Shown here one piece after another: positions 4,419 through 21,846 of a DNA stretch of 27,103 nt (position 1 is its first letter; every line of letters starts with the position of its first letter). The notes below the pieces were generated by a model, which made no database searches, had not been told where the DNA came from, and worked only from the letters and a program-made list of their open reading frames with translations. The DNA is from a virus, in the IMG/VR virus record IMGVR_UViG_3300025012_000256, positions 1 to 27,103 of that record; one strand, 5' to 3'. The position numbers were made by a program, and so were the translations under genes.

Positions 4419-6142
4419 GATATTACGATGCTAGTCAATTAGTTGGTATTTATCAAAAATCGGGTTTAAAAAAGTCAAAAGATTCGATTTTGAAAAGAGC
4501 AGCTAAAGAATGCTGGCAATTCGTGTTGAAGGGCAAACAAGGAGGACAAACAAAAGTCTTTGACTTTGATGATCTGCCAGCGGACATTCAACTTTTGATT
4601 GTTGAGTCAAAAAAACAAACTGTTATAAAAGAACACAAGTCTTTACAGACTATAAAAACTCGTAATAAAGAAGTTGGATTGATTAAATCTTATATCATTA
4701 GTTTGTATAATAAATGTGCGGTTACACAACAAAAATTTTGTGAATTATATAATAACGACCTCATCGATGTAGAAGAAAAGGCAAAAAAAGAATATCCAAA
4801 CATAGATAATTCTACATTTGGTCGTTGGCTCCGTCAAGGCGATACAGTTGCTGAACTCGCAACTAAATATGGTACAAAACGAAAAGGTGCAGGAGAAAAA
4901 ACACTCTCAGTAGATGATAAACAGATACTTAGAGCATTGTATTTGAATACTCAAAAATGGACAATGAAAAAGTGTTATCGAAAATTTATTGAAGAGTTTA
5001 ACGGTCTGGTAAGTTACGACGTAATTAAGCGATACCTAAATAGTATACCAGATGGAATAAAAGTAAAATTGCGATATGGTTCTAATACATTCAAAAACAA
5101 GTATGTACCATTTCTAACAAGAAAAACAGAGGATGTTCCAGTGATGGATTGTTGGTTTTCTGACCATCACATGTTAGATGCTTTCTGTGTAATAACTCAT
5201 TCCAACGGGAAAAAAAGTGTAATAAGACCTTGGATAACGGTATTTTCTGACCAACGCACTAGAAAAATTGTTGGGTATCATGTTTCTATCAATCCATCTA
5301 CATACTCTATTTTAATGGCATTGAAGATGGCTATATTACGGTTTGGTGCACCAAAAAAAGTTTATTTTGACAATGGTAAAGACTTTAAATCGAAGATGTT
5401 GCAAGGTTACAGTTATGAGTTCACCGATGGTGAGATAGTTAAGATAACAGGTATTCTCGAATCTTTTGGGATTGATGTTACTTTTGCTCAAAAGTTTCAT
5501 GGACAAGCCAAGCCTGTTGAGAGGTGGTTTGGTCATGTTGTTACTGATTTTTCTTGCGAGTTGCCAACATTCGTAGGTAGTAACACAGCAATAAGTCTTG
5601 AAGAACACAAAGCGAATTGGGGTCAAATAAAAAGTAATATAAAGTTGACTTTTGAAGAACTTGAAACGGAGTTTTGTAAATGGATAGAAAAATATAATAG
5701 CAAATGGGAACATTCCGGTAGAGGTATGAATAATCGAACTCCAAACGATGTATTTGATGAAGAATATAAAAACTGGACTAGAATAGACATTCCTGAAGAT
5801 TATATGCTTGAGATTTTCTCTGAGCAAATAATCAGAACTGTAAGACAAGATGGAATTTATATTAATAAAATAGGGTACTACAATCCCGAACTTATCTTAC
5901 ATGTAGGTAAAAGAGTTGTAGTTAAAAGATGTATCGATGATATGTCTCGTATCAAAGTTTTTGATATTGATGGTATTTTTCTTTGTGAAGCAGATAATTC
6001 TATATTACTTGGCACTGGCATAGCAAAAGAAGATATAGAAAGAGTCAATAAAACAAAGAAAAAAGCAAACAAGATATTAAAAGAATATTTTGATTTAAAA
6101 GATGAGATAGATAATGACAAAATATCATCTTATATAATTTGA
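4415..6142 (+). CDS. A: MuA-type DDE transposase
   Basis: The start is ATG 4415, overlapping the preceding stop. The 575-residue protein has a Mu-type N-terminal winged-helix (YYDASQLVGIY ... WQFVLKGKQGGQTKVFDFDDLP), an end-binding helical region, and an integrase core. The catalytic triad is seen by alignment to remembered MuA: D250 in WFSDHHMLDAF (MuA GDGYLH), D319 in VYFDNGKDF (MuA IDNTRG) and E369 in GQAKPVERWFG (MuA GQAKPVERAFG). VIRPWITVFSDQRTRKIVGY matches the MuA strand between the first two acids. A mu-type beta-barrel C-terminal part follows. It catalyses strand cleavage and transfer at the phage ends, with MuB supplying the target. It is slightly shorter than Mu A (663 residues), mainly at the ends. 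Confidence 0.96.
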   Translation: MRYYDASQLVGIYQKSGLKKSKDSILKRAAKECWQFVLKGKQGGQTKVFDFDDLPADIQLLIVESKKQTVIKEHKSLQTIKTRNKEVGLIKSYIISLYNKCAVTQQKFCELYNNDLIDVEEKAKKEYPNIDNSTFGRWLRQGDTVAELATKYGTKRKGAGEKTLSVDDKQILRALYLNTQKWTMKKCYRKFIEEFNGLVSYDVIKRYLNSIPDGIKVKLRYGSNTFKNKYVPFLTRKTEDVPVMDCWFSDHHMLDAFCVITHSNGKKSVIRPWITVFSDQRTRKIVGYHVSINPSTYSILMALKMAILRFGAPKKVYFDNGKDFKSKMLQGYSYEFTDGEIVKITGILESFGIDVTFAQKFHGQAKPVERWFGHVVTDFSCELPTFVGSNTAISLEEHKANWGQIKSNIKLTFEELETEFCKWIEKYNSKWEHSGRGMNNRTPNDVFDEEYKNWTRIDIPEDYMLEIFSEQIIRTVRQDGIYINKIGYYNPELILHVGKRVVVKRCIDDMSRIKVFDIDGIFLCEADNSILLGTGIAKEDIERVNKTKKKANKILKEYFDLKDEIDNDKISSYII

Positions 6143-7285: not shown

Positions 7286-7900
7286 ATGAGTGATAAAAAA
7301 ATAGAAACAAAAAACAAGCAAGATTTCAATAAAGATACAAAACGAGAGTTAGCAAGTTTAGTTGCTCTTAGAGAATCTGACTTTGTAGAAAAATTATTTA
7401 AAAAAGGTTTGGTTTTAGAAGGAAATTTAAATGACTTTAAAGACAAATCATTTAATGAAATTACTAAATTTGATAATTTTCTAATTAAAAAAAATAAAGT
7501 TAAATTATCGAAAGGTAATAGAACTTTCATTAATTTAGATGAAACTAAAAGAATAAAGTTTCTTACAAGAGACATTATTAAATTTGACAGTCAACTACAA
7601 CAAGCAAAAACAAGATTTAATCAATTCATTGAAAAAGATAAAAATATTTCTCCTGTCGTCACAGATATTATCAAGCAGGCATTTTCTTTGGATAAAGAAG
7701 GTAAGATTAATACAACTGCATTAATTCGTTTAGCAAAATTCAAGACTAAAAAAACTGAAGAGTATAAAGAATTTCAAGAATGTCAAGTATTGATTTTAGA
7801 GAGCATAAAACCTGCAGGAACAAAAAACTATTTATTGTTTCAGACTAGAGATGATGCAAAAAGTGAAGTTTGGAGAACAGTTAAATTATCATTGACTTAA
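7286..7900 (+). CDS. DUF3164-family protein of Mu-like phages
   Basis: The protein has 204 residues from ATG 7286. The C-terminal half matches the DUF3164 pattern found next to MuA/MuB genes: a DKEGKINTTALIRLAKFK block, then EYKEFQECQVLILESIKPAGT and the strand YLLFQTRDD, corresponding to the family's Gly-x-Ile...Leu, Ser-Ile and Tyr-x-x-x-x-x-Arg positions. The N-terminal half is a charged helical region. The family's role is unknown, though it is regularly in early transposition operons. The stop at 7898-7900 lies two bases before the outer stem of the hammerhead ribozyme. Confidence 0.85.
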   Translation: MSDKKIETKNKQDFNKDTKRELASLVALRESDFVEKLFKKGLVLEGNLNDFKDKSFNEITKFDNFLIKKNKVKLSKGNRTFINLDETKRIKFLTRDIIKFDSQLQQAKTRFNQFIEKDKNISPVVTDIIKQAFSLDKEGKINTTALIRLAKFKTKKTEEYKEFQECQVLILESIKPAGTKNYLLFQTRDDAKSEVWRTVKLSLT

Positions 7901-7901
7901 T

Positions 7902-8005
7902 ATAACTCTGTAAGTCGAAACGGCAAGGGTTTCCATGCCATTATCCTTTACTTTGCCGTTTTGCAGTCTGGCAACTGCAACTGATGAGACTGCCTTGGGG
8001 GTTAT
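7902..8005 (+). ncRNA. Type II hammerhead self-cleaving ribozyme
   Basis: All core elements are present. C3-A9 is CTGATGA (7981-7987). G12-A13-A14 is GAA (7917-7919), and A15.1 (7920) pairs with U16.1 (7959). Stem III: ACGGCAA (7920-7926) with TTGCCGT (7953-7959). Stem I: TTGCAGT (7961-7967), loop CTGGCA, ACTGCAA (7974-7980). Stem II is open: AGTC (7913-7916) with GACT (7988-7991), starting with the required G10.1-C11.1, then an internal loop and an outer stem 7902-7909 with 7998-8005 (six Watson-Crick and two G-U pairs). The H17 base is U7960, so the predicted cut is between 7960 and 7961 (GUU triplet). Loop I GGC (7970-7972) can pair with GCC (7992-7994) of the stem II internal loop, like known stem I-II contacts. 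It fills the gap between two early genes exactly. Confidence 0.93.
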
Positions 8006-8006
8006 T

Positions 8007-8141
8007 ATGAAAAATAAAAAGACTTTAAAACAAAAATGGAATGAACTACCAAAAGATGTTCAAGATATTATAAAGGTGATTGGTTTTATTGCTGTTGTTT
8101 TTATTGTTGGTTGGTTTGTAGTCAATAAATTTATTTTTTGA
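8007..8141 (+). CDS. 44-residue single-span membrane protein
   Basis: The start is ATG 8007; GGGGG (7997-8001) 5 bases upstream serves as the ribosome binding site and lies within the 3' strand of hammerhead stem II. The product has a basic N-terminus (MKNKKTLKQKWNELPKDVQ), then one hydrophobic span VIGFIAVVFIVGWFVVNKFIF at the C-terminal end, so it is expected with N inside and the tail in the membrane. It could be a small regulator, exclusion protein or holin-like protein; no family is recognised. Its translation probably depends on opening or cutting the ribozyme. Confidence 0.7.
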   Translation: MKNKKTLKQKWNELPKDVQDIIKVIGFIAVVFIVGWFVVNKFIF

Positions 8142-8657: not shown

Positions 8658-9339
8658 TTATTTTAAAAACATAAAAGAAAATAAAATTGAGACACCAAAT
8701 TCAATATCTTCTTTTCTTTATGACGTACTTAAAGAAAATAAAATTTTCAGTTATAATAAAACTATCATTGATGTTGGGGCTGGTGCAGGGAATCTCACAA
8801 AAGAATTCAAGCGATTTAAAATACATGCTATTGAAAAAAATAATATAGAGAATCATTTTTCTAACAGATGTTGGCAAGATGATTTCTTGTTGACTGAAAA
8901 TAAATATAATTATTTTTTATTAAATCCGTCTTGTATTTTTTGCAATCCACCTTGGAACATTGGCAAAGGTGAAACAAAAGAATATATTAATAAAATTAAA
9001 AATGAGTTCAATTTGAAATCAAGACCATTATTACCAGAATTATTTTTAAGGCAAATTTTTCTGACTTGGGCAAATGATATTCCGGTGGTTTTAATTGTTC
9101 CGTTTGGTTTCAGATTGAATCAATTAAAGAAATCAAACAGAACTGACTATTTGTTGAGTTGCGGAGCTGAAATCACAAGTATTATTTCGTTACCTTTGGA
9201 TGTTTTTCCAAATGTTAAACATCAGTCTGAAATTTTGATTTTTAATATCCCAGACTTGAAGTCACATTATTTCATTTCAAAAGAATATTATGATTTAGAT
9301 GAAATACAAGAGCAAAAAGAATTGGAGTTTAATAAATGA
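8635..9339 (+). CDS. Orphan adenine-specific DNA methyltransferase
   Basis: ATG 8635 is chosen among adjacent ATGs because GGAGG (8624-8628) is then 6 bases away. The 234-residue protein has the SAM-binding motif I, IIDVGAGAGNLTKEF (about 44-58), an acidic end of strand 2 (AIEKNN) and the catalytic motif NPPW (104-107), typical of N6-adenine (or N4-cytosine) amino-methyltransferases. No target-recognition domain of usual size is apparent, and no restriction enzyme lies nearby. Solitary phage methyltransferases commonly protect phage DNA from host restriction or affect regulation; Mu itself uses Mom modification for this. Target sequence cannot be read. A nucleic-acid methyltransferase is secure; RNA as substrate is not excluded. 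Confidence 0.85.
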   Translation: MGGIGENNYFKNIKENKIETPNSISSFLYDVLKENKIFSYNKTIIDVGAGAGNLTKEFKRFKIHAIEKNNIENHFSNRCWQDDFLLTENKYNYFLLNPSCIFCNPPWNIGKGETKEYINKIKNEFNLKSRPLLPELFLRQIFLTWANDIPVVLIVPFGFRLNQLKKSNRTDYLLSCGAEITSIISLPLDVFPNVKHQSEILIFNIPDLKSHYFISKEYYDLDEIQEQKELEFNK

Positions 9340-9539
9340 TTTGGTTGATTACGATATTTTCTTTGGTTGGTACAGTTTTGAATATCAGAAAAAACAATAT
9401 TTGTTTTGTTTTTTGGATTTTTACTAATAGTTTTTGGGCTATTTTGGATTTCCAAAAAGGCATATATCAACAATCAATGTTGATGTTGATATATTTGTTT
9501 TTGTCGATTTGGGGACTTTTGGAATGGAGGAAAAAATAA
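9336..9539 (+). CDS. Small three-span membrane protein, PnuC-like half
   Basis: The 67-residue protein starts at ATG 9336, overlapping the methyltransferase stop. It has three hydrophobic segments: IWLITIFSLVGTVLNI, FVFWIFTNSFWAIL and SMLMLIYLFLSIWGLLEW. The pattern of Trp residues, the TNSFW motif and the end IWGLLEW recall the repeat unit of PnuC nicotinamide-riboside transporters, which are built from two three-helix halves like SWEET proteins. A single half could work as a dimer, as SemiSWEETs do. Alternatively it is a holin-like or exclusion membrane protein. Resemblance is by eye; the substrate is unknown. Confidence 0.6.
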   Translation: MIWLITIFSLVGTVLNIRKNNICFVFWIFTNSFWAILDFQKGIYQQSMLMLIYLFLSIWGLLEWRKK

Positions 9540-11290: not shown

Positions 11291-11578
11291 GTGTGTTTTG
11301 ATGCAATTCGAGAGATTAGTGATATTGAACTCATTAAAAATATCGTAGGTAAAGATAAATTTGACGAGCTTCTTTTTAATTTTGGTGGAACATCAGTATA
11401 TTTCCCAAGTCAGATAGTAGACACTTCTGAGATATTTGATGATTTTGAAAATAATCTTTCATTATCTACTATCAGAAAAAAATATAAAAAGTCTATGACT
11501 TGGGTTAGAAATCAACAAAAATTATACTTAGCAGAAAAGAAAAATGGTCAAAAAAAATTATTTAATAACCTTAACTAA
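11291..11578 (+). CDS. Mor/C-family late transcription activator
   Basis: GTG 11291 lies 7 bases after AAGGAGA. The 95-residue protein has the Mor family layout: an N-terminal dimerisation helix region (EISDIELIKNIVG), the strand signature FGGTSVYFPS (31-40; Mor and C have FGG...YIP), then an HTH (about 56-78) SLSTIRKKYKKSMTWVRNQQ. It is shorter than Mu Mor (129) and C (140). In Mu, Mor activates the middle promoter and C the late ones; here only one such gene is seen in the window, so it may do both jobs. It has its own promoter after a terminator. Its stop overlaps the convergent MuF gene. Confidence 0.85.
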   Translation: MCFDAIREISDIELIKNIVGKDKFDELLFNFGGTSVYFPSQIVDTSEIFDDFENNLSLSTIRKKYKKSMTWVRNQQKLYLAEKKNGQKKLFNNLN

Positions 11579-12944
11579 CTAATTCATTAAATATATCAAT
11601 GATTTTTTGATTATAATTTTTGTAATCTATTTGACCAGCAAAAACATCTTTTACAAACTCAAGTCCATTTTTAGTTGCAGTTTCACTAACTTCTTTTTCT
11701 ATTAATTGTTTTTCTATTTCTGTAAAAATCCGCTCTTTTGCCTTTTGATATAATTCTTTGCTTTTATTATATAAATAGTAACTACCCGCTTCTTTGAATA
11801 TACTATGGTAAATACTATTAGTAGAAAGTATCTTTTTTTTGTATTGTTCTTCTATAACATCTCTATCAATCTTACCTTCGGTAAACAATTCATTAGAAGA
11901 ATTGAAGTATATAGTTTCATCTTCTGGGTTGAAATAAGAAATTACTTTTTTTATATCAATTCCATTGCTTTTTAATATTTCTTCTAGTTTTTCTCTATTG
12001 CAACTTATTTTTTTTGGAGTATTAAATTTTCTTGCTTTTATTTCAGATGTAGCATCTGTCAAATATTTTGCAGATTCTACTGTATCAAATTCGGCTTCTA
12101 TTCCTTCTTCTTTATTGATACTCTCCATATTTTTGGTGTATAAAGATTTTATTTCTTCTATCAATGGTTTTCCATCTTTGTTTAGCGTTTCATTTAAAAA
12201 ATCATAAGATTTCCAATCGGGACTCCATTTTTCTTTGCCCGGGTTGTATCGCCACTCTGGAGGGCAAAAGTTTTCTTTTGTACAATCATCTGGCGTCTCT
12301 TCTAAAACTTCAACACCTTGTCTTTTCGCCCCATCTTCTGAGAGTGAATAAACAGAGCATCTACATCGCCAGCCATTTGGCGGGTAGAAAGAATTCCAAA
12401 AAGGATTATCATATCGAAAGCCTTTGCCGTTAAGTTCTAAATGTTGCGGTCTCGTTCTTTTATCAACGATAGCCGCATAAACCCAAATAGGGCGTGCTTC
12501 ACTTATTTTCATCATTTGTTTATATCGACCCGCGCCATAAGCATTGAATATATTAACAAAATATATCAAATTTAATCGCCATGTGAGATACTTTTCTTTT
12601 TTCTCTTCTGATATATCATCTCTTCCGCCATACCACCCCTTTTTTTCAAGTGTAGGTCTGATATTATATTTGAAAGCTTTGACCGATAAACCATTTTTTA
12701 AACAATTATTTAATTCAGAAAAAATATCTTCTAAAATAGCAGTTTTCATTGAGTGAGCAACAGTGAAGCAATGTGAGTGTTCGCCAAATTGCAAGTCATT
12801 CCAATCTTCAGTTGGTACAAGTTTTTTTGATTTCAAGTATTTGATTGCTTCTTCTGGGTAGAACTTATCTTTCTCTTTTTTTGAAAATGGATCATTATAC
12901 CCAAACATTTTTTTTATAGTTTCTAAAATTTGTAAACGCAACAT
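11571..12944 (-). CDS. F: MuF (gp30/gpF-like) head morphogenesis protein with extra C-terminal domain
   Basis: The start is the ATG at 12944-12942 with GGAG (12951-12954). The 457-residue protein has the MuF core: VDKRTRPQHLELNGK, NPFWNSFYPPNGWRCRCSV and a following acidic Cys-containing segment, as in phage Mu F/SPP1 gp7 minor head proteins, which associate with the portal and are ejected or act in assembly. From about residue 290 an extra domain follows. It ends in ETATKNGLEFVKDVFAGQID, which recalls the C-terminal end (ATNPLEFFAEVFAG-like) of toxin or peptidase domains fused to MuF proteins; no HExxH motif is present. It is separated by 114 bases from the portal gene. Confidence 0.9.
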   Translation of the reverse strand: MLRLQILETIKKMFGYNDPFSKKEKDKFYPEEAIKYLKSKKLVPTEDWNDLQFGEHSHCFTVAHSMKTAILEDIFSELNNCLKNGLSVKAFKYNIRPTLEKKGWYGGRDDISEEKKEKYLTWRLNLIYFVNIFNAYGAGRYKQMMKISEARPIWVYAAIVDKRTRPQHLELNGKGFRYDNPFWNSFYPPNGWRCRCSVYSLSEDGAKRQGVEVLEETPDDCTKENFCPPEWRYNPGKEKWSPDWKSYDFLNETLNKDGKPLIEEIKSLYTKNMESINKEEGIEAEFDTVESAKYLTDATSEIKARKFNTPKKISCNREKLEEILKSNGIDIKKVISYFNPEDETIYFNSSNELFTEGKIDRDVIEEQYKKKILSTNSIYHSIFKEAGSYYLYNKSKELYQKAKERIFTEIEKQLIEKEVSETATKNGLEFVKDVFAGQIDYKNYNQKIIDIFNELVS

Positions 12945-13058
12945 TCTTATCTCCAACCTACCTAACTAATCGATTTCTAAACAGTACTAAACAGGCAAAT
13001 TCTGCGATGAATTTAAAAATCGATATTTTTTACATAAGCAATAAAAAAGCTTGTTTTT
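12945..13058 (-). promoter_or_regulatory. Gap between portal and MuF genes with paired repeats
   Basis: Read leftwards, this gap has an AT-rich hairpin at the portal stop (ACATAA 13032-13037 with TTATGT 13059-13064, inner A-run with T-run), a possible weak terminator. It also has two direct copies of CTGTTTAG 10 bp apart (complement of 12978-12985 and 12988-12995), i.e. on one helix face, and an inverted pair ATCGATTT/AAATCGAT (12970-12977, 13017-13024). Together this resembles an activator site and a separate MuF promoter, without clear -35/-10 boxes. Confidence 0.4.
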
Positions 13059-14669
13059 TTATGTTTTTGCACCGATTTGACTTGCAACATATCGTACGTT
13101 TTCTGCTATGATAACAAGGTCATCGAACTTTGCTTTTGGATGATTTTCTAATAGCAGTTCAATAACAGCCTCAAAAGTTTGGCATTTTTCTAAATCTTGT
13201 AATAAAGTATCAATGATTTTATCAGTCTCTTTTTGGAATTCTTTTTCTTTTTTCGTTGCAAATTCTTCTATGAGTTTTTTTTCTTTCTTTAATTTTTTCT
13301 CCATTTTATTCGTTGAAAAAAAACTATCGATTTTATTGAAGAACTTTCTAAATGAGTTTTCTTGTTTTTTCTTTTTCCCATTTTTTTTCTTTTCTTCAAT
13401 ATGTTCTTTTAGTTTACTTATTATTTCTTCACCTTTTTTTTTGGGTGATTCTTCTACTTCTATTTGATTATTTTTTTTAACATTTGTATCTTTTACAATG
13501 AAATATTTTGATTCAATGTCATAGTGTTTTGAAATGTAATCAGTAGTGAATTCGAGATTGAATTCTTTGATTAATTTTATATCCCTATCCACTCTATCAG
13601 AGTTCAGTCTTTTTTCTTTTTCAAACTCAAAAACAACTAAAGGTTCTTCAGTACCATAGTTTAGAATAGACCAATTTTTGCAGGCTTGATTAATTGCAGG
13701 TTCTATTAGTGTGATGTCCAAATCAGTTTTTTCTTTTCTTACTTCGTTTGCTATTTCAGTTGCAGACCTTGCACCTGTAGATTGTTGAATACTTGTCAAT
13801 ACTTCACCTAAAATTCGTAATGCTAAAGTATTGTCAATTTCTTTTAAATATGCACTAAAAAGGTCTTTTGCTCCAGATTTGTCTTTTGACTCTGTTACTG
13901 TAACTTTTACGCCTTTGGGGAAAACAGCGACACCACCAGTGACCAATAAATCTAAAGCATTCAATACCTCTTTTTTAAAATTTTTATTTTTAAAATCTCC
14001 TTGCTCAAGTTCCGCATGAGCAAAAGCACCACCAAATTTTTCTAAAAATAAAGTAAAAAATTTCCAACCGCCCTTTTTAAAAACCAACATCCAAAACAAA
14101 ACAGAAGCGAGTTTTTTCCCATAAGGGTTTTTGTACGTTGGCCAATATTGAGTTAATATAAAATTATACGGATATTCCTGCATCAAAGGAGTATTAGTAG
14201 CATAAGGCTTATTCACAACAAGATTATTGTCTTTATCGAATGCTACCCATTCTTGCGGTTTTCCCCAAATATTTTTTATGTCTTGAAAAACTCTTCCATT
14301 GCGTGTTTTTACTTCATATTCTATTTCAAGTATAGAAATACCAAAAAGTTGACATTCAATTATATCAGCAAATATTTGAAGCATATTTTTTTTCTTGAAA
14401 CTTTTGTTGAAGAACTCAGAGGCTTCTTTTGCTTCTGCGCTCTCGTTTGTTGGAATGAATGAATATTTTTGTCTTAATATTGAAGCTACTCTTTTTTCCC
14501 AAAGACCATCAAACGTCGGCTCTTTTAAAAGAGTTCGAAAAAAAGAATAATCATATCTTTTCATTCTGAAAATTTCATCAGGGTCAGGCATGATACCAGC
14601 GATTGTATCAAATGCCCGTTCAATGACCCCAGCAGTCAATATTTGTTTTTCAAATTTAGTACTAATCAT
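13059..14669 (-). CDS. DUF935 portal protein (Mu gp29-like)
   Basis: The 536-residue protein starts at the ATG ending at 14669, overlapping the terminase stop by 8 bases. It has the features of Mu-type portals: GIMPDPDEIFRMKRYDY near the start, EPTFDGLWEKRVASILRQKY, IEYEVKTRNGR, PYGKKLASVLFWMLVFKKGGWKFFTLFLEKFGG (quoted only in part: GGWKFFTLFLEKFGGAFA), then QSTGARSATEIANEVRKEKTD. Portals form the dodecameric ring through which DNA enters and leaves the head. The C-terminal third (about 390-490) is an unusually Lys/Glu-rich coiled coil. Order terminase-portal-MuF is as in Mu. Confidence 0.93.
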   Translation of the reverse strand: MISTKFEKQILTAGVIERAFDTIAGIMPDPDEIFRMKRYDYSFFRTLLKEPTFDGLWEKRVASILRQKYSFIPTNESAEAKEASEFFNKSFKKKNMLQIFADIIECQLFGISILEIEYEVKTRNGRVFQDIKNIWGKPQEWVAFDKDNNLVVNKPYATNTPLMQEYPYNFILTQYWPTYKNPYGKKLASVLFWMLVFKKGGWKFFTLFLEKFGGAFAHAELEQGDFKNKNFKKEVLNALDLLVTGGVAVFPKGVKVTVTESKDKSGAKDLFSAYLKEIDNTLALRILGEVLTSIQQSTGARSATEIANEVRKEKTDLDITLIEPAINQACKNWSILNYGTEEPLVVFEFEKEKRLNSDRVDRDIKLIKEFNLEFTTDYISKHYDIESKYFIVKDTNVKKNNQIEVEESPKKKGEEIISKLKEHIEEKKKNGKKKKQENSFRKFFNKIDSFFSTNKMEKKLKKEKKLIEEFATKKEKEFQKETDKIIDTLLQDLEKCQTFEAVIELLLENHPKAKFDDLVIIAENVRYVASQIGAKT

Positions 14670-16236
14670 AATTATGTCCTAATATATTCGATGTTTTTTC
14701 TCTTCTTCTTGTTAATATTCCTTTATGCCTTGAGGTTTTTTGTTTTAACAATTCTAAACCTTTCCTGACGCCTATCTCTAAACTGTCAAGAGCATCATCA
14801 TTCATACCGTCAGGAAACTGTCGCATTTGTCGAATCACTTCTTTTTGTTCTGGATCATCCTCGTTGAATAAGATTTTTCCTTCGGCTACCAAAGTAGATA
14901 GAGTAGATTCAATTCTTGCTTCTTTGTTTAGACCGTTATTATTAATCTTTTCTATTGGTAGCGGATATCCCTTCTTTTCTTCTACATATTCAAATTGTTC
15001 TTGAACTGTTGATGTATTGTCTTTATCTTTTGTAGGATCTTCAAAATACATTACTTCAGGATTATATTCTTCTCCCATAGTATACATACCTTCAATATGT
15101 TTCCCAAGGCGTTCTTTTCTGTTTCTTTGTTTTACTAAGTAGATTTTGCCTTTTATAAATGATATAATGGATGTTGATTTGAAATCTCCTTGCTCGCTTA
15201 TTGATAAATCTGTCGCGCCAACACACAAATCTCTTGTTGCATCTTCTATGTCAGTGTTTGAAAACCAATAAACATTCGAGACATCAAATATTTTTGAGTC
15301 TAATGCTCGTGGAATAAGTAGAAATTCTTGGTTGAAATTTTCCTCTCCCATTATTTTTTTTAATTTATCTAATGTCGCTTGTGGAAATCTTTCAGGCCAC
15401 ATCAACTTCCCGTCACTATCAATCGCAGGGTATTTTTTTGTAAATACTGGATCAATCTCATTTTCTTCGTTTCCTCGCTCTAACTGACAAACAAGGCAAT
15501 TGTCGTGCATTGGCGTTGCGACCACTATACAAACATAAACATCTGGTTCTAAAGCTGGGATCAAGTCTAACTGAATCCATTCAAGCGCATTTTCAACCCA
15601 CTTTTCACTTTTTGCTCGTTTTCTATTTTGTACATCATCAAGAATGACTCTATCTGGTCTGAATGGTCCAGAAATCAAACCTCTTGGGTCTTGTAGAATA
15701 GAGATAGCTTTGATGGTACAAACAACTTTTTTGATTGGTGAGATTATAGAAAAATGTTTTACACTTTTTTTTAAAGATGATTTAATCAAATCACCAAAAT
15801 CATTTAATATTCTTGGATTGTATTTTAGTTCCAATAAAATTCTACCAGTAAAAACAGACGCTTTATCTTCAACATAAGAACCAATCAAAGTAAATTTACT
15901 TTGACCAAAAAGCACTCCATGAAGTGCGAATACAAGAGTGAAAAAAGTTGATTTTGAAAGACCTCTTGAAGCTAATACCAGCTGTATCATTCCTTTATTT
16001 TTTGTGAGTTCTTCCCACTCCTTATGAAATTTTGGAGATTTATTTCTAAAATAGTCAGGGAAATAAGTTTTTGCAAAATATAGTAAATCATCTTCTGATT
16101 TTTTAATTCTTTTTTCTTTTGCTTTTTCTGAATTGTCATCAAAACAGGAACCGGCTTCTATTTCAGATACGAGACTGTCCCATTCTTTATAGAATTGAGT
16201 AAGATTTTTGATTTTCTTTTGTCGACTTTTTGTCAT
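14662..16236 (-). CDS. Large terminase subunit (Mu gp28-like)
   Basis: The 524-residue protein overlaps the small terminase stop by 4 bases. The ATPase domain shows a Walker A-like LASRGLSKST (88-97), the usual Arg-Gly-x-x-Lys form of terminases, and Walker B VILDD (D200, D201; the usual second acid is Glu). TPMHDNCLV is the coupling region. The RNase H-like nuclease begins at VGATDLSISEQGDFKS (D343), with further acids in YFEDPTKDKD and MNDDALDSLEIG. It packages DNA into the head and cuts it; Mu-like phages package replicated copies with flanking host DNA. Assignment is firm. Confidence 0.94.
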   Translation of the reverse strand: MTKSRQKKIKNLTQFYKEWDSLVSEIEAGSCFDDNSEKAKEKRIKKSEDDLLYFAKTYFPDYFRNKSPKFHKEWEELTKNKGMIQLVLASRGLSKSTFFTLVFALHGVLFGQSKFTLIGSYVEDKASVFTGRILLELKYNPRILNDFGDLIKSSLKKSVKHFSIISPIKKVVCTIKAISILQDPRGLISGPFRPDRVILDDVQNRKRAKSEKWVENALEWIQLDLIPALEPDVYVCIVVATPMHDNCLVCQLERGNEENEIDPVFTKKYPAIDSDGKLMWPERFPQATLDKLKKIMGEENFNQEFLLIPRALDSKIFDVSNVYWFSNTDIEDATRDLCVGATDLSISEQGDFKSTSIISFIKGKIYLVKQRNRKERLGKHIEGMYTMGEEYNPEVMYFEDPTKDKDNTSTVQEQFEYVEEKKGYPLPIEKINNNGLNKEARIESTLSTLVAEGKILFNEDDPEQKEVIRQMRQFPDGMNDDALDSLEIGVRKGLELLKQKTSRHKGILTRRREKTSNILGHNYD

Positions 16237-16730
16237 TCTTCAAATACCAGTGCGTAAGATTTTTCAATTTTTTCTTGTATCGAAGGTAATCTGTCTTTGA
16301 ATTTCTTATAGAAATCAGGATCAAGTTTTTTATAGATTTCCATATCTTCAGAAATAATTTTTAGCACATCAATTATTACGCCAAAAACAATGTCTTTGGG
16401 ATAAACTTTTTTTACTATTCCATACAATTTAGATAACGCATCTGCTTGTTTTGAGTCTATGGGTTTTTTTGTTTTTTGAGTTTCAATTAATATTTTAGCA
16501 ATTGATGAAAAAAGTCGATTTTTAATTTCGTCTGGTGACAAACTAAGCAAGTTTCTGTCTGCGTCCCAATCAATATCATTTTCTTTATCTTCTTGTTTGT
16601 ATCTGTATATAGTTGATATTGAGCAACCTAATTCTTTCGCAATCTCTTCAATTCTTTTTCTATTTTCAGTGTATAATCTGTATGCTTTTATTCGCTTTTC
16701 ATCTATATTATTATCAATGTCTTTTTTCAT
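16233..16730 (-). CDS. Small terminase subunit (DUF1804, Mu gp27-like)
   Basis: The 165-residue protein starts at the ATG ending at 16730 and overlaps both neighbours by 4 bases. The N-terminal part RIKAYRLYTENRKRIEEIAKELG, quoted in part, and CSISTIYRYKQEDKENDIDW form a HTH followed by an acidic-aromatic stretch, as in DUF1804 proteins of Mu-like phages. The C-terminal helices (VFGVIIDVLKIISEDMEIY) would make the oligomer. It recognises phage DNA for packaging with the large subunit next to it. Confidence 0.88.
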   Translation of the reverse strand: MKKDIDNNIDEKRIKAYRLYTENRKRIEEIAKELGCSISTIYRYKQEDKENDIDWDADRNLLSLSPDEIKNRLFSSIAKILIETQKTKKPIDSKQADALSKLYGIVKKVYPKDIVFGVIIDVLKIISEDMEIYKKLDPDFYKKFKDRLPSIQEKIEKSYALVFEE

Positions 16731-17533
16731 TTATTATTTCCCTTAATCATCTCTTTCACTTCAGTTTTTAATTGTTGAATTTTTTCTTCTAGACTATTTT
16801 TTATTCGCTTGTGGTCAATCGCGTTTAGTCTTACCCTGTCTAAAATTTTGTAAGTATGTTTTTTCATTGCTTCATTTATAAAATCAACATTTTCTTTCTC
16901 CTGAAACGATTCAGGAACTAATAGAATTTCAGTTTTATATTTAGCTTTTTTTATATCTTTAACAGTCGCCATAAAAACTTCGAGTTTATTTTTTTTGTAT
17001 TCTTCAAACCCAGCCTCAGTATATTCATCAAATCCGTTTTCTATTATAAATATTTTTAACTTTTTCTTATTTTCTTCTGATATTTTTTCAAGTAAGAATG
17101 AATAATATTCTTCAGATGCTTGAGTTTTTGACTCAGAAAAAACTAAGGTTTTTTCTAAAATATATTTATTTAATCTTTCAGAAAAATGCTCTTTTAAAAT
17201 GCAATTCAGTACATTTATTCCTTCTTCAGACTCCCTCATCTGTCGATATAGATGATCAATGTTATTTACTTTGCTCAATTGAGATGAATATTTGTCAAGA
17301 TCATCCACTACTTCAGTATTGATATATACTATTTCATCTGTTGATTGAAGGTTTTCTTTGTCTGTATCGCTTCCTATCTCTATTTCATTTCCTCCAAGAG
17401 AAGCTTTTATTTTTGGTATTTTTGTTAGTTTACTTGTAAATTTAATTACTAAGAAAACAACTAGACTAGCAAGTATTAACCCAAGCCCAAGATACGTTAT
17501 AGTCGCATTTACATTATTGATTTCTGGCAGCAT
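16727..17533 (-). CDS. Single-span membrane protein with long helical tail, unknown
   Basis: The start is placed at the ATG ending at 17533, because AAGGAG (complement of 17541-17546) lies 7 bases upstream; another ATG at 17539 has the box directly before it. The 268-residue protein has a short polar N-terminus (MLPEINNVNATI), one span TYLGLGLILASLVVFLVIKF, and a following basic TSKLTKIPK, so it should have N outside and the rest in the cytoplasm. The rest is charged and helical (for example ENKKKLKIFIIENGFDE, LNAIDHKRIKNSLEEKIQQL). It is in the packaging operon, upstream of the small terminase. A lysis, packaging or exclusion role is possible; none is shown. Confidence 0.7.
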   Translation of the reverse strand: MLPEINNVNATITYLGLGLILASLVVFLVIKFTSKLTKIPKIKASLGGNEIEIGSDTDKENLQSTDEIVYINTEVVDDLDKYSSQLSKVNNIDHLYRQMRESEEGINVLNCILKEHFSERLNKYILEKTLVFSESKTQASEEYYSFLLEKISEENKKKLKIFIIENGFDEYTEAGFEEYKKNKLEVFMATVKDIKKAKYKTEILLVPESFQEKENVDFINEAMKKHTYKILDRVRLNAIDHKRIKNSLEEKIQQLKTEVKEMIKGNNK

Positions 17534-17544
17534 TAACATTCTCC

Positions 17545-18150
17545 TTAAAACATTACTCCAAAACCGAACTTTATTCCACCGCCCCAAAATACAGATGTAT
17601 CAAATAGTTTATAATTCATATCTATTTTTAGACCAGGTATAATGAAAATATATTTTGATAAGAAAATATAATAATCATTGTAAAAATTAAAAGTATTAAA
17701 AATCTCTGAATTCGATTTCATCGATAAATCATAGCCAGCCGAAAAAGAGATTCCAAACTTTTTACTCTTTGCTTCTAATCCCTTAAATGCAAGTTTTGAA
17801 ATCTCTAATTGGCTTGTAAAGAGATTTCTATATTTGATAGTTTCAGATACAGTTATTTGTAAAATTATATATTTTTCGAAATCACCCTTTTTTTTGAAAT
17901 CTTCTAATGTTATTTTTGATGGGGTTTCTATGTACTTTTCTAGTAGTAAATATTTTTCATGCTCACTTTTCTTTTTAAACTCATCAAGACTTATCTTCAA
18001 TTGATTTTTTCTGTATGTTAGTAGTAGTGAATATTTTTCATCATCACTTTTCTTGACATACTCAATAAAATCAATTTTTTTAATATTTTTTGAGTATGTT
18101 GCCATTGATGATACTATCAAAAGTAACATCATTATTATTAGTTTCTTCAT
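17545..18150 (-). CDS. Signal-peptide protein with three 27-residue repeats and an outer-membrane-type C-terminus
   Basis: The 201-residue protein starts at the ATG ending at 18150 with AAAGGA upstream. Residues 1-20 form a signal peptide (KK, then LIIMMLLLIVSSMATYS) without lipobox Cys. Residues 26-106 hold three repeats of 27 residues with aligned aromatic positions (Y31/F58/F85; Y40/Y67/Y94) and the core KKKSxxEKYxLL. The C-terminal part has alternating strands (GISFSAGYDLSM, GLKIDMNYKLF, SVFWGGGIKFGFGVMF) and ends in Phe, the signature of outer-membrane beta-proteins. It suggests a Gram-negative host. It overlaps the upstream small membrane gene by 71 bases. Lysis of the outer membrane or surface exclusion are possible roles. 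Confidence 0.7.
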   Translation of the reverse strand: MKKLIIMMLLLIVSSMATYSKNIKKIDFIEYVKKSDDEKYSLLLTYRKNQLKISLDEFKKKSEHEKYLLLEKYIETPSKITLEDFKKKGDFEKYIILQITVSETIKYRNLFTSQLEISKLAFKGLEAKSKKFGISFSAGYDLSMKSNSEIFNTFNFYNDYYIFLSKYIFIIPGLKIDMNYKLFDTSVFWGGGIKFGFGVMF

Positions 18151-18286
18151 TTGTATCTGTCCTTTCTTCTAACTCTTTGATTGCGTTGTTTTTAGTTGAG
18201 TCGTTTCTTTTTAAAATTTTTGGAAGTGCTATAAAAGCACATATCAAAATAGACGCAATTATTAAAATTGCTATTATTTTTTTCAT
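18080..18286 (-). CDS. 68-residue membrane-anchored protein
   Basis: The start is the ATG ending at 18286, with GGAG (complement of 18294-18297); the longer in-frame version is rejected for lack of a site. A basic start and one span (MKKIIAILIIASILICAFIA) are followed by a polar tail rich in Glu, Asn and Asp (ELEERTDTNEETNNND). The Cys in SILICA is not in a proper lipobox. The gene overlaps the next signal-peptide gene by 71 bases in another frame, an arrangement like i-spanin/o-spanin pairs, though the tail lacks a long coiled coil. It is the first gene of the leftward late operon. Confidence 0.6.
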   Translation of the reverse strand: MKKIIAILIIASILICAFIALPKILKRNDSTKNNAIKELEERTDTNEETNNNDVTFDSIINGNILKKY

Positions 18287-18335
18287 GTTTAGTCTCCGTT
18301 TTAACGGTTTATATAAACTAAAAAACTTATTCAAG

Positions 18336-18402
18336 TAAACTTTTTTGAAAAATCTTTCCTAAACTTTTTCCTAAACTTTTTTCTCAAAACTTTTTTTGAA
18401 AG
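18336..18402 (-). promoter_or_regulatory. A-tract repeat array in the divergent late control region
   Basis: On the - strand the motif AAAAAGTTTA/AAAAAGTTTT occurs four times between 18402 and 18336, with the two AAAAAGTTTAGG copies 12 bp apart. Phased A-tracts bend DNA. Downstream of it on the - strand are TTTACT (about -35) and TTATAT (about -10) before the gene at 18286; the poor -35 fits an activator-dependent late promoter. A 12-bp palindrome CCGTTTTAACGG lies at 18296-18307. The full gap 18287-18454 has no gene. The rightward promoter is not evident. Confidence 0.45.
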
Positions 18403-18420
18403 TGATTTTTTTTTATTGCA

Positions 18421-18448
18421 TTGTCTCCTCATCAACTTTAGGAGACAA
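18421..18448 (+). promoter_or_regulatory. Hairpin sequestering the amidase ribosome binding site
   Basis: TTGTCTCCT (18421-18429) is perfectly complementary to AGGAGACAA (18440-18448), with a 10-base loop. The 3' arm contains AGGAG, the Shine-Dalgarno sequence of the amidase whose ATG is at 18455. In RNA this would hide the site and lower translation, as seen for some lysis and late genes. As DNA it could instead be an operator. Confidence 0.65.
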
Positions 18449-18454
18449 AAATTT

Positions 18455-18985
18455 ATGACTATAAAAGAAATGCTTTTAACTCCAAACCAATTTAGTAGAC
18501 CAGAAAAGCCACTCAGTGCCGTCAAAGGGCTTGTAATACATTATGTTGCAAATAAAAATACAACGGCAGCGCAAAACAGAAATTTTTTTGAAAACAGAAA
18601 AGACGGAAAATCTGATTATGGCTCTGCTCATTATATCATTGGGCTAAAAGGTGAAGTAATAAGATGTATTCCAGAAAACGAAATGGCATATCATGTTGGA
18701 GCAAAAGTATATAAAGAAATTGCTTTGAAAAATCTATCTTCATATCCAAATGATTGCACTATAGGTATAGAATGTTGTCACATCAACGATAACGGAGTCA
18801 TGAACTCAAGTACATACGAATCTTTAGTTTCTTTAACTACGGATTTGTGCAGAAGATACAATCTTGATGCTCAAAAAGATGTTTACTTGCATTATGACGT
18901 TACGGGTAAAAACTGTCACAGATTTTTTGTTGAAAACTCTAAAGAATGGGATGCCTTTAAAAAAGAGGTTTATAACAAAACATGA
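18455..18985 (+). CDS. N-acetylmuramoyl-L-alanine amidase (endolysin)
   Basis: ATG 18455 is chosen since AGGAG (18440-18444) precedes it; an upstream in-frame ATG would place the hairpin inside the gene. The 176-residue protein is an Amidase_2/PGRP-type enzyme: GLVIHYVANKNTTAAQNRNF with the first zinc His, SAHYIIGLKGEVIRCIPE, GIECCH, and HYDVTGKNCHRFF with the second His and the zinc Cys. It cleaves the bond between N-acetylmuramic acid and L-alanine of peptidoglycan. It closely recalls XlyA/CwlA amidases of low-GC Gram-positive prophages, but the CP of the usual NCPRFF is CH here. It has no signal peptide, so a holin would be needed. It opens the rightward late operon. Confidence 0.92.
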   Translation: MTIKEMLLTPNQFSRPEKPLSAVKGLVIHYVANKNTTAAQNRNFFENRKDGKSDYGSAHYIIGLKGEVIRCIPENEMAYHVGAKVYKEIALKNLSSYPNDCTIGIECCHINDNGVMNSSTYESLVSLTTDLCRRYNLDAQKDVYLHYDVTGKNCHRFFVENSKEWDAFKKEVYNKT

Positions 18986-21478: not shown

Positions 21479-21846
21479 TGTATAAAATAAAAATAATAGG
21501 CTTTGTTAAAAATGAAAAAGGAACTATCTCAAAAGGAACTGAGCTTATTATAGAAGAAAAAAAAGCACTTTCATTAATTGAAAGTGGAGGTGCTAAATTA
21601 ATTGAAATTATAAAAGATGATTCTGACAAAGAGGACTCTAAAGTTCCTCCAAAAGATGACTCTGACAAAGAGGACTCTAAAGTTCCTCCAAAAGATGACT
21701 CTGACAAAGAGGATTCTAAAGTTCCTCCAAAAGATGACTCTGACAAAGAGGATTCTAAAGAACCTCCAAAAGATGACTCTGACAAAGAGGAAATTAAAAA
21801 AGGTTTAAAAAAAACAAATGAGGGATTACCTAAAGGTGTTTTATAG
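21478..21846 (+). CDS. FluMu N-type small protein with acidic-proline tandem repeats
   Basis: ATG 21478 overlaps the capsid stop by one base, with GGAGGGGG upstream. The 122-residue protein has an N-terminal domain (YKIKIIGFVKNEKGTISKGT, then a helix ALSLIESGGAKLIE) that resembles the small HI1506/FluMu-type protein after the capsid gene in Mu-like phages. The C-terminal half consists of near-identical 13-residue repeats KDDSDKEDSKVPP, then KKGLKKTNEGLPKGVL. The repeats are highly acidic and likely unstructured. Its role in the head or as a connector is unknown. Confidence 0.7.
   Translation: MYKIKIIGFVKNEKGTISKGTELIIEEKKALSLIESGGAKLIEIIKDDSDKEDSKVPPKDDSDKEDSKVPPKDDSDKEDSKVPPKDDSDKEDSKEPPKDDSDKEEIKKGLKKTNEGLPKGVL
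21613..21789. repeat. 39-bp minisatellite in a coding gene
   Basis: Four full 39-bp units start at 21613, 21652, 21691 and 21730, with a partial fifth at 21769. They encode 13 residues each, differ by only a few bases (GAT/GAC, GAC/GAT, GTT/GAA changes), and keep reading frame. The high DNA identity suggests recent expansion by slippage. The length is likely variable between related phages. It is not a CRISPR array. Confidence 0.9.

Follow-up and report, generated by a model that had tools for sequence, protein, structure and literature searches.

The closest described relatives of the element analysed here are the type II (GSC) hammerhead ribozymes, which combine a CUGAUGA/GAA core with closed stems I and III and a short, open stem II, and in which a pseudoknot joins loop I to the tail that directly follows stem II (Perreault et al., 2011, PMC3088659). 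Type II hammerheads are very common in bacteria, where hammerheads flank prophage genes; of 18 consensus hammerheads assayed in vitro, 14 cleaved, a hammerhead array from A. tumefaciens cleaved in E. coli, and disrupting the type II pseudoknot lowered activity by orders of magnitude in the one case tested (PMC3088659). A pseudoknot hammerhead was about ten times faster than other forms, and the crystal structure of the pseudoknot hammerhead has the same core as our element with the pseudoknot beside it, although the crystallised form was designed and made of two strands; the Pistol ribozyme likewise has a pseudoknot next to the core, but its core and mechanism are different (PMC11300833). Bacterial hammerhead and twister ribozymes have also been associated with Mu-like phage genes (work cited in a passage of PMC10085705).

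The element lies in a virus record of 27,103 bases (IMG/VR IMGVR_UViG_3300025012_000256; the whole stretch analysed, called the window here) that encodes a Mu-type transposase, a TniB/MuB-like ATPase, a DUF3164 protein, and Mu portal and Mu F proteins. From its bases we consider it very probable that this is a type II hammerhead with a loop I/3'-tail pseudoknot, which would cut the polycistronic early mRNA of the phage after U7960. It is a fresh example of a known ribozyme class in a known context: it shares with the elements of PMC3088659 the stem topology, the core, the pseudoknot right behind stem II, and the prophage gene context, and differs from them in having U at position 17, which is usually C, and an extra 8-bp outer helix.

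Anatomy and position of the intergenic element

The stop codon of the DUF3164 gene (TAA, 7898-7900) and the next ATG (8007) are separated by 106 nt, and the element occupies this space, as the initial annotation had claimed. Elsewhere in the early region of the window, genes overlap or are spaced by at most 11 nt, save for one gap of 234 nt that contains a small ORF from ATG 9540 (read by eye). G and C make up 46% of the element, against about 28% of the surrounding region. Features of the locus are collected in Table 1; the small protein encoded downstream is, judging from its own residues, a putative membrane protein.

Table 1. Features of the intergenic element and its neighbouring genes, in window coordinates.
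Feature	Positions	Strand	Remarks
DUF3164 gene, upstream neighbour	7286..7900	+	Pfam PF11363, E 2.7e-23; phrog_846
Entire intergenic element (hammerhead and outer helix), DUF3164 stop to next ATG	7902..8006	+	106-nt gap in an otherwise tightly packed early operon
Outer helix, upstream strand AUAACUCU	7902..7909	+	8 bp with 7998-8005; would mask ribosome site
Stem II, 3' strand (A)GUC	7913..7916	+	pairs with 7988-7990 (7991); C7916 = C11.1
Core GAA (G12 A13 A14)	7917..7919	+	read directly
Stem III hairpin, 22-nt loop	7920..7959	+	predicted pair probability near 1; A7920 = A15.1, U7959 = U16.1
H17 = U	7960..7960	+	predicted cut 7960/7961; 8 of the 324 type II elements parsed among the matches listed have U17
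Stem I hairpin, 7 pairs, loop CUGGCA 7968-7973	7961..7980	+	UUGCAGU 7961-7967 / ACUGCAA 7974-7980
Pseudoknot, loop I strand GGCA	7970..7973	+	4 Watson-Crick pairs with 7991-7994
Core CUGAUGA	7981..7987	+	read directly
Stem II, 5' strand GAC(U)	7988..7990 (7991)	+	read directly; G7988 = G10.1
Pseudoknot, 3' strand UGCC	7991..7994	+	directly behind 3-bp stem II, like the published type II arrangement
GGGGG, likely Shine-Dalgarno of the gene at 8007	7997..8001	+	inferred from spacing
Downstream gene, 44-aa small protein with hydrophobic stretch	8007..8141	+	no family match

Read from 5' to 3', the element runs AGUC, GAA, hairpin III, U17, hairpin I, CUGAUGA, GACU. Both parts of the type II (GSC) core are present (CUGAUGA at 7981-7987 and GAA at 7917-7919), the pairs A15.1-U16.1 (A7920-U7959) and G10.1-C11.1 (G7988-C7916) are formed, and H17 is U7960 and not G. 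Stems I and III are closed, with 7 and 9 pairs, and stem II is open, with 3-4 pairs. Stem III is built from ACGGCAA 7920-7926 and UUGCCGU 7953-7959, whose seven Watson-Crick pairs are followed by a G-U and a G-C pair. The hammerhead reported in the initial annotation is thus borne out base by base from 7913 to 7991, and an independent covariance model recognises it; its seven pairs in stem I and seven pairs plus an extension in stem III agree with our reading, and the core and stem order lead to the same predicted cut position, 7960/7961. Its core and three stems stand, and two points of anatomy change: stem II is 3-4 bp, and a pseudoknot of 4 pairs between loop I and the tail, a feature of the majority of type II hammerheads that the annotation lacked, is present.

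Several other features of the window are recorded here as observations in their own right. Mu F-like, portal, and terminase genes lie on the minus strand (11571-18525) with plus-strand early and late modules on either side, an arrangement that seems unusual for a Mu-like phage. A radical SAM protein gene (1117-2031) lies upstream of the transposase region, and a 67-aa protein (9336-9539) matches PF04973 (nicotinamide mononucleotide transporter family) only over its C-terminal third. At 21612-21791 a near-perfect 39-bp tandem repeat (4.6 copies, 97%) encodes DDSDKEDSKVPPK repeats in a small protein whose gene follows that of the capsid.

Evidence beyond chance and the reach of covariance models

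The arrangement is not random. A descriptor spanning all three circular permutations of the hammerhead finds one at this site only in the window, and its sole hit across 400 dinucleotide shuffles (10.8 Mb) is a weak site, with 4+4+4 pairs against 7+4+9 here; no site with at least 7 pairs in both stems I and III turned up in the shuffles. The check suggested in the initial annotation, a search with the Rfam type II model (RF02276), came out differently: Rfam gave nothing relevant across the window or in the 181 nt round the element, and RF02276 run alone at E up to 10 returned no match, so that a score of 37 bits or more was not reached. RF02276 is a consensus of 66 positions, a detection model and not a definition of type II, and we take the miss as a limit of a short-consensus model and not as evidence against the element; the model is probably hampered by the long stem III loop and the GUC/GAC stem II.

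Because Rfam does not report the window element, type II elements were collected independently through two pattern scans of IMG/VR DNA, each yielding at least 120 stretches, and 324 distinct type II elements, the window element included, were parsed from all loci among the matches listed. An alignment of 40 phage type II elements that leaves the window element out (A3, which replaced a first MAFFT alignment, A2, that had mixed stem I lengths) was used to build a covariance model, R1. With filters off, the window element scores 31.1 bits (E 2.2e-6), against 12.2 bits (E = 0.19) for the next-best match in the window; with default filters it scores 37.5 bits (E 2e-7). These E-values are rough owing to a short calibration. 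The elements that Rfam detects in DUF3164 phages are found by R1 as well. The 12-bit match (5386-5446, within the transposase gene) aligns only stem II and the core edges and was rejected as a second hammerhead. Covariation of stems I-III in A3 is partly built in, because stems I and III were selected for pairing and stem II was fixed by the scan patterns. The loop I/tail pseudoknot was not selected for, and there all 6 of 6 pairs changed on both sides, with 62% of cells pairing; among the 324 parsed elements (matches listed), loop-tail complementarity is 3.43 versus 2.52 in shuffled tails.

Searches for close relatives of the phage itself gave little. None was found by DNA among phages, through DUF3164 or the MuB-like ATPase in IMG/VR, or in two scans of genome contigs; a MuA search gave only a 27% relative, and the DUF3164 protein alignment was too diverse for scanning. 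Terminase and capsid searches led to one contig only (IMGVR_UViG_3300025030_000454, L332/L333), which is 100% identical over the late part, with identical terminase and capsid proteins, and, judging by its length, seems to continue past the right end of the window. At its other end this contig breaks off within the terminase gene, short of the hammerhead region, and R1 has no match in it. No relative with the same intergenic region was found in which compensatory changes at this very site could be seen.

Type II hammerheads behind DUF3164 and before ribosome sites

The element had been presented as a rare permutation in a place where no hammerhead was known to have been described. Type II is, to the contrary, very common in bacteria (PMC3088659), and each pattern scan found it in at least 120 IMG/VR stretches. 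At least ten other phage contigs have a type II hammerhead directly after the DUF3164 stop (L021, L224, L235, L247, L254, L283, L290, L297, L305, and L329), and a link with Mu-like phages is already published, as the same passage of PMC10085705 indicates; in the literature searched, we found no paper that mentions DUF3164 and hammerhead ribozymes together. In those ten loci the distance from the DUF3164 stop to GAA is 5-58 nt, and it is 19 nt by the same count for the window element, which differs from them in stem II (GC-type in the ten), in position 17 (C in the ten), and in the downstream genes (judged from their first codons).

The recurrence of type II hammerheads behind DUF3164 extends beyond immediate neighbours. 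Among the matches listed, 77 loci have both, a few of them retrieved through DUF3164 itself; the hammerhead is on the DUF3164 strand in all 77 and downstream of the gene in 74, and it falls within 60 nt of the DUF3164 stop in 11 loci, including the window element. The association is uneven with respect to stem II: among the matches listed, DUF3164 occurs in 68 of the 120 stretches from the scan for GC-type stem II (L092-L211) and in none of the 120 from the scan for GUC/GAC-type stem II (L212-L331). The window element therefore has a GUC/GAC stem II although it lies beside DUF3164. More generally, the type II elements form two populations, with GC/GC or GUC/GAC stem II, and in much of the GUC/GAC population loop I is only 3 nt long and a pseudoknot is not evident.

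RF02276 matches 11 of 71 records reached via DUF3164 or the transposase; two of the 11 are Burkholderia phage KS10 and Pelagibaca phage vB_PeaS-P1, where the match directly follows the HU-beta gene. The RF02276 elements of DUF3164 Mu-like phages (KS10, vB_PeaS-P1, L012, L013, L014, L016, L017, L019, L020, L028, and L076) share with the window element their architecture and an early-region position near DUF3164, most of them with a ribosome site behind the pseudoknot strand. They mostly have a GC/GC stem II and AGCC or AGCU tails, whereas the window element, which RF02276 misses, has GUC/GAC and UGCC.

Type II elements also recur in front of ribosome sites. Among the 324 parsed elements (matches listed), a ribosome site and start codon follow in 263; under strict criteria, 217 have a ribosome site and ATG behind them, versus 37 and 48 at control positions. 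The median distance from G10.1 to the start codon in this set is 24 nt, and it is 19 nt in the window element. In each of three contigs (L237, L127, and L183), 8 to 10 type II hammerheads were parsed, which seem to precede successive genes.

The window element resembles these hundreds of phage elements in architecture and is unusual in a few respects. Of the 324 parsed elements (matches listed), 304 have C at position 17, 12 have A, and 8 have U, counts that lean to C because one of the two scan patterns required it. In the same set the stem III loop is mostly 2-5 nt, against 22 nt here, and the commonest stem I region is 22 nt, against 20 nt here. Two loci directly behind DUF3164 (L224 and L283) have similarly long stem III regions, so a loop of this length is not unique, and we regard the window element as an ordinary member of the class with slightly unusual details.

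Competing readings and the proposed cleavage of the early mRNA

The minimum-free-energy structure of the element is not the hammerhead: in it GAA pairs with UUU 7960-7962 and GCAGUCU 7963-7969 pairs with AGACUGC 7987-7993, and it is 4.2 kcal/mol better than the hammerhead, computed without the hammerhead's pseudoknot. Fast natural cleavage triplets are GUC and GUA (PMC3138052), and the GUU triplet created by U17 could, together with this competing fold, make cleavage slow. An inactive relic or a slow hammerhead, with the fold present and poor or no cutting, is an unlikely reading; 4 of 18 consensus hammerheads failed to cleave (PMC3088659). However, an energy gap as large is found in 14% of the type II elements parsed among the matches listed, so the competing fold is not disqualifying; seven further U17 elements among the matches listed look intact; and the core bases, stems, and pseudoknot are all intact here, although sequence not under selection would be expected to drift in so AT-rich a phage. 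The two competing strands form a perfect 7-bp inverted repeat that excludes stems I and II, and an alternative helix this long occurs in 1.2% of the 324 parsed type II elements (matches listed).

These same strands enter into a reading in which the ribozyme is coupled to translation, which we judge quite unlikely. Here the outer helix (7902-7909/7998-8005) would mask the GGGGG ribosome site in uncut RNA, the alternative fold would shut the ribozyme off, and once the RNA was cut and its upstream part lost, the ribosome site in front of the gene at 8007 would become accessible. The outer helix pairs without mismatches and extends to the ribosome site, with pair probabilities up to 0.98; none of the 324 parsed elements (matches listed) scores higher, and 1.5% of permuted pairs reach this score. 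The perfect 7-bp alternative helix (7963-7969/7987-7993) cannot form together with stems I and II. Chance could nevertheless produce a value of 1.5% at a single site, and the outer helix would still join both pieces after the cut. Nor is the helix conserved in the class: over the 324 parsed type II elements (matches listed) it scores 9.20 versus 9.26 for permuted flanks, and masking of ribosome sites by an outer helix was on these numbers rejected as a general type II property, which leaves the idea of a switch resting on the sequence of this one element. The full form of this idea, an 8-bp helix that extends the open stem II to mask the Shine-Dalgarno while the exclusive 7-bp helix flips the RNA between active and inactive folds, we hold to be improbable.

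It is very improbable that the stretch is coding, with the downstream gene beginning at ATG 7935 (68 aa) instead of 8007. The frame 7935-8141 is open and in frame with 8007, and AAGGG precedes ATG 7935, but the first 24 codons from there fall entirely within the ribozyme gap, their GC content is far above that of the phage, and the usual distance from the end of a type II hammerhead to the start codon, about 24 nt, fits 8007. An intrinsic terminator, attenuator, or other early-operon hairpin in place of a ribozyme is the least probable of the readings: stem III is by itself a strong hairpin with U residues behind it, yet of the GC-rich hairpin and U run that mark an intrinsic terminator the U run is only short here, a terminator scan (which ignores loops as long as 22) finds none on the plus strand here, and such a hairpin would leave CUGAUGA, stems I and II, the pseudoknot, and the covariance match unexplained.

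On the preferred reading, a self-cutting type II hammerhead, the predicted cut would fall between the DUF3164 cistron and the small-protein cistron and yield two messages from one transcript, with no host nuclease required for the split. Hammerhead cleavage at 17/1.1 leaves 2',3'-cyclic phosphate and 5'-OH ends. The upstream message would keep the closed stem III hairpin at its 3' end, and the 5'-OH end of the downstream message, some 46 nt ahead of the following start codon, would open with the closed stem I hairpin. The stability and translation of the two messages could then differ. Because the type II topology gives each new end a hairpin, the ribozyme may serve to produce messages that are stable independently of each other, and the steady place of these elements before ribosome sites hints at a significance of the downstream 5' end.

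These results place the window element within a wider pattern. Phages contain hundreds of such elements. The pattern that emerges from the set gathered here is a position on the coding strand of the early operon, downstream of DUF3164 and usually about 24 nt before a start codon, and at least 11 phages have a type II hammerhead directly behind the DUF3164 stop. The Rfam type II model misses likely real members that have long stem III loops. Contigs that contain 8 to 10 type II hammerheads are good material for finding the role of these ribozymes in phages.
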